NCBI RefSeq assembly: GCF_010671595.1 | Contig: NZ_JAABOP010000003.1 | Location: 124,001 to 188,000, forward strand | Direction: 5' to 3' | DNA length: 64,000 nt | DNA from: Muriicola jejuensis | GTDB lineage: Bacteria; Bacteroidota; Bacteroidia; Flavobacteriales; Flavobacteriaceae | Part shown: in pieces, positions 39,966-45,576 of the stretch | How the letters are laid out: the number at the start of each line of letters is the position of its first letter | How positions within the stretch are numbered: the first letter of the stretch is position 1 | The notes under the pieces: model-generated | What the model was told of the DNA's origin: nothing | What the model saw: only the letters and a program-made list of their open reading frames with translations | Database searches by the model: none | Position numbers and translations under genes: made by a program

Positions 39966-42746
39966 TCAGATCTTTGATTTGAGGTACCTGGCAGTATGCC
40001 CTTTCCCTTCAGATACGACCTCTTCAGGGGTACCCTCGGAGACGAGGTAACCTCCGTTTTCCCCTCCTTCAGGTCCCAGGTCGATCAGGTAATCGGCACA
40101 TTTGATCATATCGAGGTTGTGTTCGATGACCAGTACGGAATGTCCTGCCTGCAGCAGGGCCTCAAAGGAATTCAAAAGTTTTTTGATGTCGTGGAAATGC
40201 AGGCCTGTGGTAGGTTCGTCGAAAATGAACAGGGCCTTGTCCTTTGACGCCCCTTTCACTAAGAACGTGGCCAGTTTGATGCGCTGAGCTTCCCCTCCGG
40301 ATAAAGTAGATGAAGATTGCCCCAGGGTTACATAACCCAATCCCACATCCTGAAGGGGTTTGAGTTTCGCTATTACCTTATTTTGTTTGTGTCTTTTAAA
40401 GAATTCCAGGGCGTTGTCGATGGTCATATTCAGTACATCGTCTATGTTCATGCCTTCGAATCGCACTTCCAGCACATCTTTCTTGAAGCGTTTGCCCTGG
40501 CAGGTATCGCATTCCAAATGCACATCGGCCATGAACTGCATCTCAACGGTGATCTCACCTTCGCCTTTGCATTTTTCGCACCGGCCCCCTTCTACGTTAA
40601 AGGAAAAATGCTTGGCCTGGTAACCCCTTAATTTGCTGAGTTTCTGGGAGGCGAACAGACTTCTGATATCGTCATAGGCCTTGATATAGGTGACGGGGTT
40701 AGACCTTGAGGACCGCCCGATGGGATTCTGGTCCACGAATTCAATGCTTTTGATGTCCCTGTATTTTCCTTCGATGCCGGTATGCTGCCCGGCCTTGTCG
40801 CCATAGCCCCCTAATTCCTTCAGAAGGGCTGGATATAGGATCTTCCTCACCAGGGTGCTCTTGCCACTTCCTGACACACCCGTAACCACCGTCAGCATGT
40901 TGAGGGGGAAGGTAACATCAATGTTCTTTAAGTTGTGCTCTCTGGCACCTAATACCTTGATAAAATTTGGGCTTCGCCTGCGTTTTTCGGGCACTTCTAT
41001 TTTTTCCTTTCCATTAAGATAGGCCGCCGTGAGGGTTTCGGCTGCCAGGATCTCATCGTAGGTTCCGCTGGCCACGACCTCCCCACCGAACGTTCCCGCC
41101 ATGGGCCCTATGTCGATAATCCGATCTGCAGCCTTCATGATGTCCTCGTCGTGTTCTACAACAATGACCGTATTTCCGAGATCCCTCAGAGATTTGAGCA
41201 CACTGATCAGGTTTTCTGTATCCCTTGGATGAAGCCCAATACTGGGTTCATCCAGTATATACATGGATCCCACCAGGCTGCTGCCCAGGGAGGTGGCGAG
41301 GTTGATACGCTGACTTTCCCCTCCTGAAAGGGTATTCGATTTCCTGTTCAGGGTGAGATAACCCAGCCCGACCTTTTCCAGGAACCCAAGCCTGGTATTG
41401 ATCTCCTTCAACAATCGACTTGCGATCGCCTTTTCGTGATCCGTGATGGTAAGATCCCCGAAAAAGCGGATCAGAGAGGTGATAGGTTGCTCTACGAGAT
41501 CGGAAATGGACATGCCATTGATCTTTACGTAATCTGCTTCCTTCCTGAGGCGTTTCCCCTTGCAAAGGGAACATCGGGTCTTACCGCGGTACCTCGACAA
41601 CATGACGCGGTTCTGAATTTTGTAACTCTTATCCTCCAGCTGCTGAAAGAATTTGTGGATCCCGATAAAATGGCTATTTCCCTCCCAGACCAGGTTCTTC
41701 TGATCCTCTGATAGCTGGTACCAGGGTTTGTGGATGGGAAAGTCGAATTTGTAGGCGGCGTTGACGAGTTGATCCCTGTACCAGCTCATACTTTCACCCC
41801 TCCAGGGGAAAACCGCATTCTCGTATATTGAGAGGGAGGTATTAGGGATCACAAGGTCCTCATCGATGCCGATGACATCCCCGTATCCCTCGCATTTAGG
41901 ACAGGCCCCGTAAGGATTGTTGAAGCTGAACAGGTGTACGTTGGGCTCCAGAAAGCCCATGCCGTCTAGCTCGAAAATATTGCTGAAGGTGGTTTGTTCC
42001 CCTGTGGCAATCTCCTCAATGATACAGGTACCCTTTCCTTCGAAGAAGGCGGAATCAACCGCATTGGCCAGTCGGTTATAAAAGTCCTCGTCCTCTTTCT
42101 TCACGATCCTGTCGACCACCAGGTACAACTGGTCCCCTACAGCCTGATGCAGGTCCTCGTCGATCCGGTGTACTTCCCCACCGTATTTCACTCTCGCATA
42201 GCCCTGGAGAGAGAGGAGTTGGAGCGTTTTTTTCTTATCCCGGTTCTCGGGGATGGTAATAGGCGCCAGCAGGAGGAGTTTTGTGTCCTCTTCGAACCCT
42301 TTTACAAAAGATACTACATCGGTTACCGTGTGCTTTTTTACCTCTTCACCTGAAATAGGAGAAAATGTCCTTCCGATCCTGGCGAAAAGCAGTTTGAGGT
42401 AGTCGTAAATCTCCGTACTGGTCCCGACGGTAGAGCGGGGGTTAGTGGCATTTACTTTTTGCTCAATGGCGATGGCGGGGGCAATCCCCTTGATCTGATC
42501 CACCTTGGGCTTGTCCAGTTTTCCCAGGAACTGACGCGCGTAGGAGGAGAGACTTTCCACATAGCGCCTTTGTCCTTCGGCGTAGAGGGTGTCGAAGGCA
42601 AGGCTCGATTTCCCTGAACCCGACAAGCCCGTGATCACCACCAGCTGGTTGCGTGGAATCACCACGTCAATGTCTTTCAGGTTGTGGAGTTTGGCTCCTT
42701 TAATGATGATATTGGTCTTCGGACTGACCTCCGCAAGCGTGTTCAT
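39966..42746 (-). CDS. uvrA: Excinuclease ABC subunit A
   Basis: UvrA finds DNA damage and loads UvrB in nucleotide excision repair. The protein is 926 residues from the ATG at 42746. Two ABC modules are seen: Walker A GLSGSGKSSLAFD and GVSGSGKSTL, signatures NTLSGGESQR and STLSGGEAQR, and zinc-finger cysteines (CSLCKGKRL; CEKCKGEGE with CDTCQGKR). The frame is open 14 codons further upstream to 42788, but the -7 box at 42764-42771 lies inside that extension, so the start is 42746. It is transcribed alone. Confidence 0.96.
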   Translation of the reverse strand: MNTLAEVSPKTNIIIKGAKLHNLKDIDVVIPRNQLVVITGLSGSGKSSLAFDTLYAEGQRRYVESLSSYARQFLGKLDKPKVDQIKGIAPAIAIEQKVNATNPRSTVGTSTEIYDYLKLLFARIGRTFSPISGEEVKKHTVTDVVSFVKGFEEDTKLLLLAPITIPENRDKKKTLQLLSLQGYARVKYGGEVHRIDEDLHQAVGDQLYLVVDRIVKKEDEDFYNRLANAVDSAFFEGKGTCIIEEIATGEQTTFSNIFELDGMGFLEPNVHLFSFNNPYGACPKCEGYGDVIGIDEDLVIPNTSLSIYENAVFPWRGESMSWYRDQLVNAAYKFDFPIHKPWYQLSEDQKNLVWEGNSHFIGIHKFFQQLEDKSYKIQNRVMLSRYRGKTRCSLCKGKRLRKEADYVKINGMSISDLVEQPITSLIRFFGDLTITDHEKAIASRLLKEINTRLGFLEKVGLGYLTLNRKSNTLSGGESQRINLATSLGSSLVGSMYILDEPSIGLHPRDTENLISVLKSLRDLGNTVIVVEHDEDIMKAADRIIDIGPMAGTFGGEVVASGTYDEILAAETLTAAYLNGKEKIEVPEKRRRSPNFIKVLGAREHNLKNIDVTFPLNMLTVVTGVSGSGKSTLVRKILYPALLKELGGYGDKAGQHTGIEGKYRDIKSIEFVDQNPIGRSSRSNPVTYIKAYDDIRSLFASQKLSKLRGYQAKHFSFNVEGGRCEKCKGEGEITVEMQFMADVHLECDTCQGKRFKKDVLEVRFEGMNIDDVLNMTIDNALEFFKRHKQNKVIAKLKPLQDVGLGYVTLGQSSSTLSGGEAQRIKLATFLVKGASKDKALFIFDEPTTGLHFHDIKKLLNSFEALLQAGHSVLVIEHNLDMIKCADYLIDLGPEGGENGGYLVSEGTPEEVVSEGKGHTARYLKSKI

Positions 42747-42763
42747 ATTCTTCTGGAAAGCAG

Positions 42764-42771
42764 CAAAGATA
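42764..42771 (-). promoter_or_regulatory. -7 box for uvrA
   Basis: On the minus strand TATCTTTG matches TAnnTTTG exactly, 17 bases before the uvrA ATG at 42746. It rules out the longer upstream start. Confidence 0.5.
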
Positions 42772-42862
42772 CGATATGAAAACACCAATAACCAGCCTCA
42801 TTTGGGCCCGTCCCCAAAAATGTTAAAAAAACCATCAAGGGATGCAAGACTCATATTTTTTC

Positions 42863-42870
42863 TATCTTTG
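42863..42870 (+). promoter_or_regulatory. -7 box for the first sigma-factor module
   Basis: TATCTTTG matches TAnnTTTG exactly and would give a leader of about 110 bases before the ATG at 42990. No matching -33 box is clear. Confidence 0.42.
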
Positions 42871-42989
42871 AAGTGTTAATCGTCAAGAAATACGCCTATA
42901 CCGCAACATTACTTTTTGAAGTTTTAGATTTTTTGTCGCGTTCTGAATAACCCCCGCGACCCCTGAATTGAACCAAAAAAAGTAATTGT

Positions 42990-43571
42990 ATGCACACGAC
43001 GATTGACGACGCCACACTTATCCGAAATTATATCAATGGTGATGAGAAAGCCATTGAGCTCCTGATCAACAAACACAATCAACGACTTAGCAGTTATATC
43101 TATTCCAAGGTGAAGGATATGACGGTAACCGAAGATATCTTCCAGGATACCTTTATCAAGGTCATCAGTACCTTTAAACGGGGTACCTATAATGAGGAAG
43201 GGAAATTCCTGCCCTGGGTCATGCGCATCGCCCATAACCTGATCATCGATCATTTCCGCAGAAACAAACGCATGCCCAAATATCAGGGGAACCAGGAATT
43301 CAATATATTTTCTGTTCTCACTGATGACAAACCCAATGCGGAGCGGCAACTTATAAAGGACCAGATAGACCAGGACCTGGAAGTTCTTATAGAACAGCTG
43401 CCCAAGGATCAGTTGGAAGTGCTGAAGATGAGGATCTATCAGAATATGAGTTTCAATGAGATCGCAGAGAACACCGAGGTCAGTATCAATACCGCCCTGG
43501 GACGCATGCGATACGCCCTCATCAATCTGAGGAAACTCATCGAGAAAAATCAAATAGTTTTAACGAATTAA
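42990..43571 (+). CDS. ECF-like RNA polymerase sigma factor, copy 1
   Basis: A 193-residue sigma-70-family protein with regions 2 and 4 only. Region 2 is seen as the TEDIFQDTFIKV and WVMRIAHNLIIDHFRRNKR stretches (about 45-95); region 4 as MSFNEIAENTEVSINTALGR with the following helix (about 152-185). The pattern of sigma factors without a linked anti-sigma fits the ECF type. It is followed 69 bases later by a 47-residue ORF, and the pair is repeated about 1.1 kb downstream. No transmembrane anti-sigma gene is present. Confidence 0.88.
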   Translation: MHTTIDDATLIRNYINGDEKAIELLINKHNQRLSSYIYSKVKDMTVTEDIFQDTFIKVISTFKRGTYNEEGKFLPWVMRIAHNLIIDHFRRNKRMPKYQGNQEFNIFSVLTDDKPNAERQLIKDQIDQDLEVLIEQLPKDQLEVLKMRIYQNMSFNEIAENTEVSINTALGRMRYALINLRKLIEKNQIVLTN

Positions 43572-43640
43572 TCGGCCCTAGGTCGAGGAAATCCATCAAT
43601 CCTGTATCTCTGTCGTTATTTAGATGTAACAAGAGATCAT

Positions 43641-43784
43641 ATGGAAAAGATTTACTCTAGCCCGGAAACTCAATGCAGGCTGATCACAAGCAGGCCAGAA
43701 ACGGTCAAATTCCTACTGGACTATTCCAGGTCACTTCACATGCGTGAATTCAAGGGCATGACCATAGAGCAGAACCTGAATTGA
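43641..43784 (+). CDS. 47-residue protein after sigma factor, copy 1
   Basis: An ORF of 47 codons (MEKIYSSPET..., then PETVKFLLDYSRSL at 19-32, ending in LN). It aligns without gaps with the copy after the second sigma factor: shared are MEKIYS, C12, PET at 19-21, KFLLDYSR at 23-30 and the final LN. Two independent copies keeping the same pattern in the same place argue that it is a real protein rather than chance. The central stretch would form an amphipathic helix. I know no family or function. It lies just before a strong terminator and is likely co-transcribed with the sigma factor. Confidence 0.75.
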   Translation: MEKIYSSPETQCRLITSRPETVKFLLDYSRSLHMREFKGMTIEQNLN

Positions 43785-44102
43785 TAAAGGCGTTTAATTA
43801 GGAAGTTCCAAATTTGTTTATGTGTACAAGCACTTTCTTCGGAAAGTGCTTTTTTTATGGCCTTTCCCACTCTCCAAAATTGATGGCAGCACGACTCTTA
43901 AGAAGATCTTAAAATCCTTGCCATTGGCCAATTCCGACTTTCACATCAAGAATCGGGCATTTGACAACAATGTTTTTCCCGAGGAAGGGTCTTTGGGTAC
44001 TTTTAGAATGTCATTGAAAAACAAGTAACTCAAATTGTTCTGATAACCTTAGTTCTTTAGCCTGGCTGACGAACTAACAAAAACCAAAAAGATACTCTAA
44101 CT
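43785..44102 (+). other. 318-base gene-free stretch between sigma modules
   Basis: Contains a terminator at 43828-43856 and, after it, about 240 bases with no feature I trust. A 68-codon open frame at 43822-44028 begins upstream of and runs through the terminator and resembles nothing, so I do not call it. The promoter of the second module should lie here but shows no exact TAnnTTTG. Confidence 0.6.
43828..43856 (+). terminator. Terminator of the first sigma module (UUCG loop)
   Basis: A 10-bp stem AAGCACTTTC / GAAAGTGCTT closed by the stable TTCG tetraloop, then seven T. Confidence 0.92.
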
Positions 44103-44687
44103 ATGGAACCACAAAGGGACGACTCACTACTAGTTCAGGATTACATCAGCGGGGAAGAAAAGGCACTGGAGATTCTGATCAACCGACACAACCAACGCAT
44201 CAGCAGTTTTATCTATTCCAAGGTACTCGACAGAGATGTTACCGAGGATATCTTTCAGGACACCTTTATAAAGGTTATCAAAACCCTGAAAAAAGGCAAT
44301 TACAGCGAGGAAGGGAAATTCCTCCCCTGGGTGATGAGGATCGCACACAACCTGATCATCGACCATTTCAGGAAGAACAAAAGAATGCCCAAGTTCGAAG
44401 GGAACGACGATTTTAATATCTTCTCTGTGATCGGGGACGATAAACTCAACGCCGAGAAGCAACTGATCAAGGATCAGATAGACAGCGACCTTACCCTCCT
44501 TATCGAGGAATTGCCAGACGACCAGAAAGAGGTCCTGCTTATGCGGATTTACAAGGACATGAGCTTTAAAGAGATCTCAGAGAATACAGGGGTCAGTATC
44601 AATACAGCCCTGGGAAGAATGCGATACGCACTGATCAATCTCAGAAAGATCATTGACAGGCATAATATAGTTCTGACAAATTCATAG
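44103..44687 (+). CDS. ECF-like RNA polymerase sigma factor, copy 2
   Basis: A 194-residue sigma-70-family protein closely similar to the one at 42990 along its whole length (TEDIFQDTFIKV, WVMRIAHNLIIDHFRKNKR, MSFKEISENTGVSINTALGR). Region 2 and region 4 are intact, so it should recognise a promoter and bind core polymerase. The most different parts are the first 20 and last 15 residues. It is followed 67 bases later by the second 47-residue ORF. Confidence 0.88.
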   Translation: MEPQRDDSLLVQDYISGEEKALEILINRHNQRISSFIYSKVLDRDVTEDIFQDTFIKVIKTLKKGNYSEEGKFLPWVMRIAHNLIIDHFRKNKRMPKFEGNDDFNIFSVIGDDKLNAEKQLIKDQIDSDLTLLIEELPDDQKEVLLMRIYKDMSFKEISENTGVSINTALGRMRYALINLRKIIDRHNIVLTNS

Positions 44688-44723
44688 TTCGCAACAATTT
44701 TCACAATATTTCCATAGGCCTTG

Positions 44724-44741
44724 CGTTATCTTATCATAACG
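44724..44741 (+). other. Perfect inverted repeat upstream of the second 47-residue ORF
   Basis: CGTTAT (44724-44729) and ATAACG (44736-44741) can pair with a 6-base loop, 13 bases before the ATG at 44755. A weaker GTTA/TAAC pair sits at the same place upstream of copy 1 (43615-43630). It may be an RNA structure or an operator. Confidence 0.35.
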
Positions 44742-44754
44742 ACATCGCAATCCT

Positions 44755-44898
44755 ATGGAAAAAATTTACTCAACAAAGAAAAACGCTTGCGAGATCCCCA
44801 AAGCTGGGCCGGAAACCATCAAGTTTCTGCTAGACTATTCGAGAGCACTCAGAATCACAAAACACAGGCAGTTCAGTTTTGATCTGATCCTGAATTAA
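44755..44898 (+). CDS. 47-residue protein after sigma factor, copy 2
   Basis: An ORF of 47 codons: MEKIYSTKKNAC..., PETIKFLLDYSRAL at 19-32 and an aromatic end (FSFDLILN). Same length and position as the copy at 43641, same key residues (MEKIYS, C12, PET, KFLLDYSR, LN). The first half before the core and the last 14 residues have diverged, while the core is kept. It reaches the terminator at 44906 without further genes. I cannot name a function. Confidence 0.75.
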   Translation: MEKIYSTKKNACEIPKAGPETIKFLLDYSRALRITKHRQFSFDLILN

Positions 44899-44905
44899 AA
44901 ACCAC

Positions 44906-44935
44906 GGCCCGCATCAGCGGGCCTTTTTCTTTTTG
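44906..44935 (+). terminator. Terminator of the second sigma module, overlapping the nth stop codon
   Basis: Stem GGCCCGC / GCGGGCC with loop ATCA and a T-rich tail. The stop codon of the convergent nth gene is in the loop. Confidence 0.85.
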
Positions 44936-45576
44936 AGGTATTCATTTATAACCGACCTCCTGCCAATAGTCCTCGTGATCACATCCTTCTCGAGGTCCCA
45001 TCCGCGTGCAGGTGAATATTCCCTTCCGTACCAAATGATCTGAAGGTGCAGGTCATTCCATAATTCCTTGGGAAACAGGCGTTTGGCATCCTTTTCTGTT
45101 TGAACCACGTTCTTACCCGAGGAAAATCCCCATCGATACATCAACCTGTGGATATGGGTATCCACGGGAAAGGCCGGTATACCGAATGCCTGGGAAACCA
45201 CCACACTTGCCGTTTTGTGGCCCACCCCCGGTAATTCTTCCAGGAGTTCTATTTCCTGGGGGACCGTACCCCCGTATTGATCGACAAGGATCTGAGAAAG
45301 CCCGTGTATTCCCTTTGATTTCATGGGTGACAAGCCCACAGGTTTAATGACCTCCCTGATTTCCTCCACAGATAATTTGACCATGTCATAAGGATTATCA
45401 GCCCGACTGAAGAGGAGGGGAGTGATCTGGTTCACCCTCACATCGGTGCTCTGTGCAGACAAAAGGACTGCAATAAGCAGGGTATAAGGGTCTTTGTGTT
45501 CCAGGGGAACCGGGATCTCAGGATAGAGTTCGCCCAGGGTGTTTATCGCAAAGGTTACCTTTTCAGATTTGGTCAT
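44914..45576 (-). CDS. nth: Endonuclease III homologue lacking the iron-sulfur cluster
   Basis: A 220-residue DNA glycosylase/AP lyase for oxidised pyrimidines in base-excision repair. The helix-hairpin-helix (LEELPGVGHKTASVVV) contains the lysine nucleophile K121, and the catalytic aspartate D139 is in VDTHIHRL. The usual C-terminal 4Fe-4S loop is missing: where it belongs the sequence reads GREYSPARGWDLEKD, and the whole protein has no cysteine. I recall cluster-less homologues of similar sequence in flavobacteria, but did not check. It shares a short divergent gap with the peroxiredoxin gene. Confidence 0.9.
   Translation of the reverse strand: MTKSEKVTFAINTLGELYPEIPVPLEHKDPYTLLIAVLLSAQSTDVRVNQITPLLFSRADNPYDMVKLSVEEIREVIKPVGLSPMKSKGIHGLSQILVDQYGGTVPQEIELLEELPGVGHKTASVVVSQAFGIPAFPVDTHIHRLMYRWGFSSGKNVVQTEKDAKRLFPKELWNDLHLQIIWYGREYSPARGWDLEKDVITRTIGRRSVINEYLKKKKAR

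Follow-up and report, generated by a model that had tools for sequence, protein, structure and literature searches.

A 47-residue protein that usually follows one type of ECF sigma factor in Bacteroidia is probably a miniature anti-sigma factor, reduced from a class I anti-sigma domain (ASDI), and the sigma probably also serves part of the type IX secretion (T9SS) and gliding machinery. We consider this the likely reading, although binding, inhibition, feedback and the identity of the sigma that reads the associated promoter-like element are inferred. The protein, here called MIC, was found in two copies in the window, which is the whole 64,000-nucleotide stretch of Muriicola jejuensis DNA analysed (GCF_010671595.1, contig NZ_JAABOP010000003.1, positions 124,001 to 188,000 of the forward strand). 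Features are given in window coordinates.

42863..42870 (+), housekeeping (TAnnTTTG) -7 box upstream of sigma 1
42990..43571 (+), ECF sigma factor 1 (upstream copy), 193 aa
43597..43618 (+), promoter-like element of copy 1 (CAATC..CGTTA, departs from the consensus)
43641..43784 (+), MIC1, 47-aa mini anti-sigma candidate
43828..43851 (+), terminator-like hairpin and T run after MIC1
44103..44687 (+), ECF sigma factor 2 (downstream copy), 194 aa
44703..44728 (+), ECF-type promoter-like element of copy 2 (ACAATA-N15-CGTTA)
44755..44898 (+), MIC2, 47-aa mini anti-sigma candidate
44906..44923 (+), terminator-like hairpin and T run after MIC2

The two sigma factors match Pfam Sigma70_r2 (4e-13 and 5e-14) and Sigma70_r4_2 (1e-7 and 1e-10), as well as the ECF model, and no region 3 model was listed. 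The nearest solved chains by sequence are AlgU (named sigma-H), RpoE and SigW. The gaps between sigma and MIC are 69 and 67 bases. The two small ORFs align end to end without a gap, with 21 of 47 residues identical (45%; BLASTP E 5e-15 for the pair), and share MEKIYS, C12, PET, KFLLDYSR and the final LN, as the first-pass annotation had described. Two points of that annotation require correction. The sigma factors, which it called near-identical, are 74% identical (143/193), and C12, which it listed among the shared residues, is not a family trait. Cys is present at that column in 44 of 284 aligned members, which also led us to reject a redox switch on C12, whereas S29 (281 of 284) and the C-terminal Asn (270 of 286 members) are conserved.

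MIC is a real protein family that tracks this sigma type. It was found in 183 of 199 genomes of the family, and the window genome has 18 sigma-like matches but MIC only after these two. In 105 MIC copies from 81 loci (80 fetched because of their MIC hits, plus the window), all start with ATG and follow a sigma gene by 52-115 nt, in all three relative frames. In a second sample, of 80 named loci chosen by the sigma alone, 84 of 86 testable sigma genes have MIC. Change between homologues is biased to synonymous sites (pN/pS median 0.34, none above 1, 153 pairs), indicating purifying selection. The suggestion of the first-pass annotation, that the ORF is a conserved micro-protein and could modulate its sigma factor, is supported, although modulation has not been shown by experiment. 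Its remark that no anti-sigma factor is nearby is probably wrong, since the small protein itself is the likely anti-sigma factor. Searches with the MIC profile over wider groups gave matches at E<=0.1 in 93 of 148 order genomes and 129 of 295 class genomes, but the weakest of these are probably chance, and we rely on sigma-selected loci instead.

Further off in the class the link is looser. Of 109 class-wide sigma loci, 50 have MIC, 22 have an ASD-like protein in the same position, and 37 have neither within 700 nt; in 27 further loci, from the phylum draw and one additional locus (L401), the numbers are 10, 8 and 9. Four of 12 genomes of the family with a close sigma but no profile match also have neither. 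The protein found in deeper lineages, referred to here as the long form, has 72-81 residues, or is a membrane-anchored version of this. Three ASD-like proteins of the class, at loci L369, L372 and L392, have a hydrophobic, membrane-type segment, and L321 and L401, from outside the class, have such long forms too. Of 6 long forms scanned, those of L372 and L392 match the NCBIfam model NF052375 "anti-sigma factor" at 5e-8 and 2e-4, below its cut-off, and the other 4 do not; none of 10 long or intermediate forms scanned matches an anti-sigma model in Pfam. A profile of the long form against PDB sequences gave nothing relevant (best E 0.006, to unrelated proteins).

The long form is modelled as three helices plus a separate fourth (pLDDT 84). 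Of 17 PDB matches to this model retrieved with Foldseek, 15 are anti-sigma factors (RsiW, MucA, ChrR, RslA, RskA, PupR), but all E-values are weak (0.69 or more). VIA Z reaches 6.8, with RsiW at 6.6 over 70 residues at 2.9 A, but values of 4-7 are within what helical bundles give by chance. Alignment of the MIC profile (A5) with that of the long form (A4) by hhalign gives 96.7%, E 4e-10, end to end, and places MIC on the start of the long form and its helix 4, predicted to bind sigma2. Restricted to Flavobacteriaceae-type members (A2 against A4), the match covers only 21 columns at 85%. MIC itself matches no anti-sigma model. In the likely reading, MIC kept the N-terminal start (M-x-K-x-[FY]-[ST]) and helix 4, the helix that in known complexes sits on sigma2 regions 2.1/2.2 and blocks binding to core RNA polymerase, lost the three-helix bundle, and gained a short C-terminal hairpin that ends in a fixed Asn. 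An AF2 model of a sigma-MIC fusion has pTM 0.46 and no confident docking, and gives secondary structure only, with one MIC helix (19-31) and a hairpin. Covariation between sigma and MIC provides weak support: 8 of the top 20 pairs join sigma 15-65 to MIC 16-33 (10% of the area), whereas 24 neighbour shuffles gave 0-6. However, the block was defined after seeing the list and is unstable in half-samples (2-4 of the top 20, with the top pair falling to rank 4-73), and the shuffles replace partners by ones of 0.64 mean identity, so they also weaken shared ancestry.

The gap between sigma and MIC holds a conserved ECF-type promoter-like element. AATA-N12-17-CGTT is present in 186 of 250 gaps, against a shuffled mean of 2.8 (maximum 8), and in 2 of 81, 3 of 76 and 0 of 76 cases before uvrA, nth and bcp. 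The other 64 gaps lack it in this form, copy 1 of the window being among the departing ones. An inverted repeat GTTA..TAAC, considered as an operator, is present in 56 of 105 gaps at loose settings and is secondary to the conserved CGTT. TAnnTTTG lies in the 150 nt before the sigma in 139 of 250 relatives (shuffled mean 25.5), but none was found between MIC1 and sigma 2. The sigma gene appears to be read from a housekeeping promoter and MIC also from its own, most simply read by the same sigma, so that active sigma would make its own inhibitor. The AATA-N15-CGTT element also lies before porU and, under synonymous constraint, inside ruvA before sprA, which points to T9SS genes and makes secretion and gliding the likely output. 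RuvA coding constraint was considered for the motif near sprA, but a codon test spoke for constraint on the DNA. In the one genome of that sample without the sigma, ruvA was not found upstream of sprA in the stretch fetched, so its lack of the element says little.

Other roles for MIC are less well supported. It is possible, but unlikely, that MIC is a positive partner, a small subunit or chaperone that the sigma needs to bind core polymerase or its promoter. Tight linkage and covariation fit any direct partner, and both genes occur duplicated together as one module. However, the sigma survives without MIC in the many lineages noted above (on a FastTree tree, after two of the 37 with neither form were relabelled by eye as possible MICs, the label "none" needs 20 changes, at least 8 forced by starred branches), and the homologous long form may have an anti-sigma-like fold. 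Similarly doubtful is a role as an adaptor that binds the sigma and hands it, or itself, to a protease or to a signalling protein such as a PorX-like regulator, with inhibition secondary. The fixed C-terminal Asn, at the stop codon in 270 of 286 members, could be the handle and is not explained by a binding helix alone, and in P. gingivalis PorX acts on SigP (PMC4800418, PMC7712824). The neighbours usually seen are nevertheless uvrA, nth and bcp, not a protease or regulator, and the 16 long forms aligned lack this tail motif, so the tail is probably not the ancestral function.

That the ORF is a leader peptide, or a by-product of a conserved RNA or DNA element in the gap and after it, is largely refuted. 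The gap is indeed very conserved (88% and 94% between the window and its congener, above the 73% and 89% of the ORF). Against this stand purifying selection on the protein, a conserved start and C-terminus in three different frames relative to the sigma, similarity to a longer protein domain, the absence of an Rfam match, and the position of perfect-stem terminators, which occur in none of 105 gaps but within 200 nt after the ORF in 71 of 105 cases. Stop-codon readthrough fusing sigma and MIC was rejected, since the genes are in frame for copy 1 of the window but in only 24 of 105 copies.

Wu et al. 2020 (PMC7406223) note that only 6% of Bacteroidetes ECF sigmas have a class I anti-sigma factor nearby, against 32% overall, and ask whether other anti-sigma kinds are at work. 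A widespread micro-protein with a visible series of reductions (membrane-type, soluble 72-81 aa, 60-70 aa, 47 aa) would answer part of this question. We regard it as about as likely as not that an anti-sigma factor reduced to essentially one sigma2-binding helix plus a hairpin, among the smallest known, closes a widespread negative feedback loop on the ECF sigma that drives T9SS and gliding genes in Bacteroidia, and was overlooked because it is under 50 residues. It would also offer a natural minimal inhibitor for study, and give the T9SS regulon of Flavobacteriia a candidate sigma, a promoter signature and a brake. No existing description of the pair was found in the literature searched, which did not extend to the tables of the main ECF re-classification paper; the papers consulted were PMC9723704, PMC4800418, PMC8265659, PMC5607195, PMC7406223, PMC10951265 and PMC7712824.

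Among the closest known systems are the SM6 promoters of Flavobacterium psychrophilum; the selection of SM6 genes shown includes porU and gldN (PMC9723704), although the sigma that reads SM6 is not settled there. SigP of P. gingivalis is an ECF sigma tied to T9SS genes including ruvA-sov (PMC4800418), and here the gap element recurs before porU and, inside ruvA, before sprA, the sov homologue. sigP is autoregulated and is not among the sigmas for which PMC7712824 lists a possible downstream anti-sigma. SigP answers to PorX, and the SigP motif proposed in PMC4800418 is not AATA-N15-CGTT. In outline, and without any claim of sequence similarity, MIC would work like the class II anti-sigma CnrY and the alphaproteobacterial NepR, as a very short polypeptide that would cover the sigma with few elements (CnrY binding mode as summarised in PMC7406223). 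MIC is not membrane-anchored: mean hydropathy above 1.6 over 19 residues was found in 1 of 286 MICs. With the class I anti-sigma factors (RsiW, MucA/RseA, ChrR, RslA, RskA), MIC shares a gene position next to and downstream of an ECF sigma, and the long relative behind the same sigma is modelled with four helices and matches these structures best, although the matches are weak. MIC has 47 aa, lacks the three-helix bundle and a membrane segment, is modelled with a C-terminal hairpin and has a fixed final Asn, and the 16 long forms aligned show no Hx3Cx2C zinc motif. We therefore regard MIC as a putative derivative of the class I anti-sigma factors, not as a member.

The first-pass annotation, which placed two sigma genes and two 47-residue ORFs in this part of the window, is exactly right as to their positions. 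The sigmas are ECF factors and are 74% identical to each other, while the ORFs, whose product is here called MIC, are 45% identical end to end. No Pfam or NCBIfam family matches the ORFs, and no Rfam family matches the stretch 42700-45000. Each pair is followed by a terminator-like hairpin. The features to which the following analyses refer are:

42990-43784: sigma 1 and MIC1, in frame with each other across the TAA stop of sigma 1, with no further stop between
43597-43618: promoter-like element of copy 1, departed from the full form
43615-43630: inverted repeat GTTA..TAAC overlapping the CGTTA box of copy 1
43828-43851: terminator-like hairpin after the first pair
44703-44728: promoter-like element of copy 2, full form
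44725-44740: inverted repeat GTTA..TAAC overlapping the CGTTA box of copy 2
44906-44923: terminator-like hairpin after the second pair

MIC is a real protein family. A profile of the two window copies matched 183 of 199 genomes of the same family at E<=1, and 80 loci from 79 of those genomes, chosen by their MIC hits, were examined. In these and the window, all 105 MIC copies start with ATG, follow a sigma gene by 52-115 nt (median 69), and lie in all three frames relative to it. Only 24 of the 105 are in frame with the sigma, so the in-frame arrangement of sigma 1 and MIC1 is probably due to chance. The usual gene order is uvrA (opposite strand), sigma-MIC once or twice, nth (opposite strand), and bcp. 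Among 153 same-length pairs of 70-99.9% nucleotide identity, pN/pS had a median of 0.34 and never exceeded 1. Between the window and its congener the values are 0.14 for MIC1, where pS is 0.83 and near saturation, and 0.11 for MIC2; between the two paralogues the value is 0.58.

Because choosing loci by MIC is circular, the opposite test was also run. The best 80 of 554 named loci found with a sigma profile, most of them from Flavobacteriaceae or other Flavobacteriales, hold 87 sigma genes, of which 83 have MIC downstream by profile at E<0.01, although the profile had been iterated on sequences that include these loci. Inspection by eye showed that of the remaining loci one (L254) has a MIC 421 nt away, one (L244) ends 78 nt after the sigma, and two (L242 and L252) lack it, giving 84 of 86 testable sigma genes. 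L242 and L252 are from two Bacteroidales MAGs in which the next long ORF downstream looks, by eye, like murB. Of the 16 genomes of the family missed by the MIC profile, 12 have a close sigma (E 1e-46 or better). By eye, 8 of these 12 have a diverged MIC 37-53 nt after the sigma and 4 have none (loci L169, L172, L173, and L174, from genomes of 1.6-1.9 Mb). The window's genome has 18 sigma-like matches to NF009166 at E<=1e-10 but only these two MICs.

The sigma profile matches 133 of 149 genomes of the class (E<=1e-40), but what follows the sigma is more varied across the class. Of 109 class loci that were read, the window among them, 50 have MIC, 22 have an anti-sigma-like (ASD-like) protein, and 37 have neither within 700 nt. 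Of the 22 ASD-like hits, 15 were themselves used to build the profile of the long form (A4), which was iterated once on these loci, and by eye two of the 37 (L340 and L397) may hold further MICs. Twenty-seven more loci, 26 from a draw on the phylum and one further locus (L401), were first read without the ASD profile; of the 26, 13 had a MIC-profile match and 13 did not, and L401 had none. With both profiles these 27 have 10 MIC, 8 ASD-like, and 9 neither, and 7 of those 8 were not in A4. In total, therefore, 60 of 136 loci have MIC, 30 have an ASD-like protein, and 46 have neither.

The ASD-like protein is usually 72-81 residues long and, as we read the alignment, has the pattern M-x3-[FY]-T-x2-D-[LI]-[LI]-R-[YF]-x-Y-[GN]-E ... 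P-x3-[ST]-[VI]-x2-[IV]-[LM]-x-[YFH]-S. In three loci of the class (L369, L372, and L392) it continues into a hydrophobic segment and a further domain, and the proteins of L372 and L392 match the NCBI anti-sigma model NF052375 below its cut-off (5e-8 and 2e-4). L321 and L401, from genomes of the phylum outside the class, also have long forms with a hydrophobic segment to the eye, which suggests that the membrane form is ancestral. Intermediates of 60-66 residues exist. Profile comparison joins MIC (profile A5, which includes three intermediates) and the long form end to end (96.7%, E 4e-10), while the Flavobacteriaceae-type profile joins only the helix motif (85%, 6e-6, 21 columns).

The long form is predicted by AF2 to have helices at 7-14, 20-32, 34-53 and, after a linker, 59-77 (pLDDT 84, pTM 0.57). 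This is the plan of class I anti-sigma factors, in which a three-helix bundle lies on sigma4 and helix 4 lies on sigma2 (PMC7406223). Foldseek returned 17 PDB chains at E<=10, of which 15 are anti-sigma factors; the best E is 0.69, so the weight of this result lies in its consistency and not in any single score. VIA-align gives Z values of 6.8 (MucA, 53 aligned), 6.7 (RslA), and 6.6 (RsiW, 70 aligned at 2.9 A), which are within the range where helical bundles may match by chance. In a model of a sigma-MIC fusion, MIC is predicted to be a helix (residues 19-31, blocks of pLDDT 82-86) and a hairpin (32-37 and 40-45, about 73), with no confident docking (pTM 0.46). The conserved helix of MIC corresponds to helix 4.

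Mean-field coupling on 284 sigma-MIC pairs (286 built, 2 dropped for gaps; effective number 145) ranks L183-R35 first (z 7.3). Eight of the top 20 pairs join sigma 15-65 (regions 2.1-2.2) with MIC 16-33, a block of 10% of the area that was named only after the list had been seen. Twenty-four shuffles among near relatives gave 0-6 such pairs and a lower maximum, but these shuffles also weaken shared ancestry. Reweighting and other pseudocounts kept 3 to 9 pairs in the block, and half-samples gave 2-4. The covariation is only weak support.

The gap between sigma and MIC is more conserved than the ORF between the window and its congener (88% and 94% against 73% and 89%). CGTT lies in 246 of 250 gaps shorter than 125 nt (shuffled mean 35), and AATA-N12-17-CGTT lies in 186 of 250 (mean 2.8, max 8); in 36 loci with longer gaps, the latter lies within 60 nt before MIC in 7 (mean 0.3, max 2). 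Shuffles keep base content only and the sequences are related, so the counts are not independent. The spacer is mostly 15 nt (77 of 91 pairs counted at 8-22 nt in 105 gaps), and CGTTA occurs in 87 of 105 gaps, mostly 27-38 nt before the ATG. Controls before uvrA, nth, and bcp have 2 of 81, 3 of 76, and 0 of 76. The housekeeping box TAnnTTTG is enriched before the sigma (139 of 250, mean 25.5) but not in the gap (9 of 250, mean 10.5), and in the window such a box was found before sigma 1 but not before sigma 2. No perfect-stem terminator lies in 105 gaps. The inverted repeat GTTA..TAAC, which might be an operator or a transcript hairpin, was found loosely in 56 of 105 gaps.

A strict form of the element hit three places in the window's genome: MIC2, a place between convergent ORFs, and the 3' end of ruvA just before sprA (contig C11, 698526-698551), where the ruvA and sprA homologues are named by our reading and confirmed only by adjacency and sequence. 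In 30 of 30 loci of the family (the best 30 of 59 genomes with a match), the RuvA codons at this place are AAT ... GCG TTA. GCG makes up 13% of Ala codons elsewhere in those frames, the next Ala is GCG in 1 of 30, and AAT is 64% of Asn codons. TTA is 41% of Leu codons, but another Leu nearby is also TTA in 30 of 30, so that codon is not distinctive. In 19 further loci with ruvA before sprA the element is kept, twice with Thr coded ACG instead of Ala, which keeps CGTTA. In all, 49 of 49 loci with ruvA before sprA have this ECF-promoter-like element, AATA-N15-CGTTA, embedded in the coding 3' end of ruvA, with sign of synonymous constraint. In the one sigma-less genome examined (G023), no element is present, but ruvA was not found before sprA in the stretch read. 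Before porU the element occurs in 22 of 30 loci (the best 30 matches to the PorU model; shuffled mean 2.0, max 7), and in 19 of the 22 it lies at -30 to -33. The PorU sortase model NF033707 finds no match in the window's genome or in eight relatives (genomes G001, G011, G018, G026, G032, G037, G050, and G056), although SprA is present; all of these but G056 carry the tandem sigma-MIC in the loci read.

Most likely MIC is a miniature anti-sigma factor that caps sigma2 and is itself made from a sigma-dependent promoter, giving negative feedback on an ECF regulon that includes T9SS genes; binding, inhibition, feedback, and which sigma reads the element are inferred. Repeated loss of MIC with retention of the sigma fits an inhibitor better than an obligate activator. 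The tandem duplication is probably old: upstream and downstream copies largely group apart in a quick tree of 73 sigmas (8 label changes in all for three labels; shuffled mean 34.8), although 41 of 69 inner branches are weak, and upstream copies have longer branches to the eye. The presence of two paralogous pairs raises the question of cross-talk. Anti-sigma factors are a known kind of regulator, of which MIC would be a new form, sound and well supported, with a strong and testable physiological link.

That the window sigmas are SigP-type is only a good guess. In P. gingivalis the ECF sigma SigP controls ruvA-sov and other T9SS genes (PMC4800418), and one SigP homologue is reported in F. johnsoniae (PMC10951265). 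In F. psychrophilum, porU is among the genes read from an ECF-type 'CGT box' promoter (SM6) whose sigma is not settled (PMC9723704).
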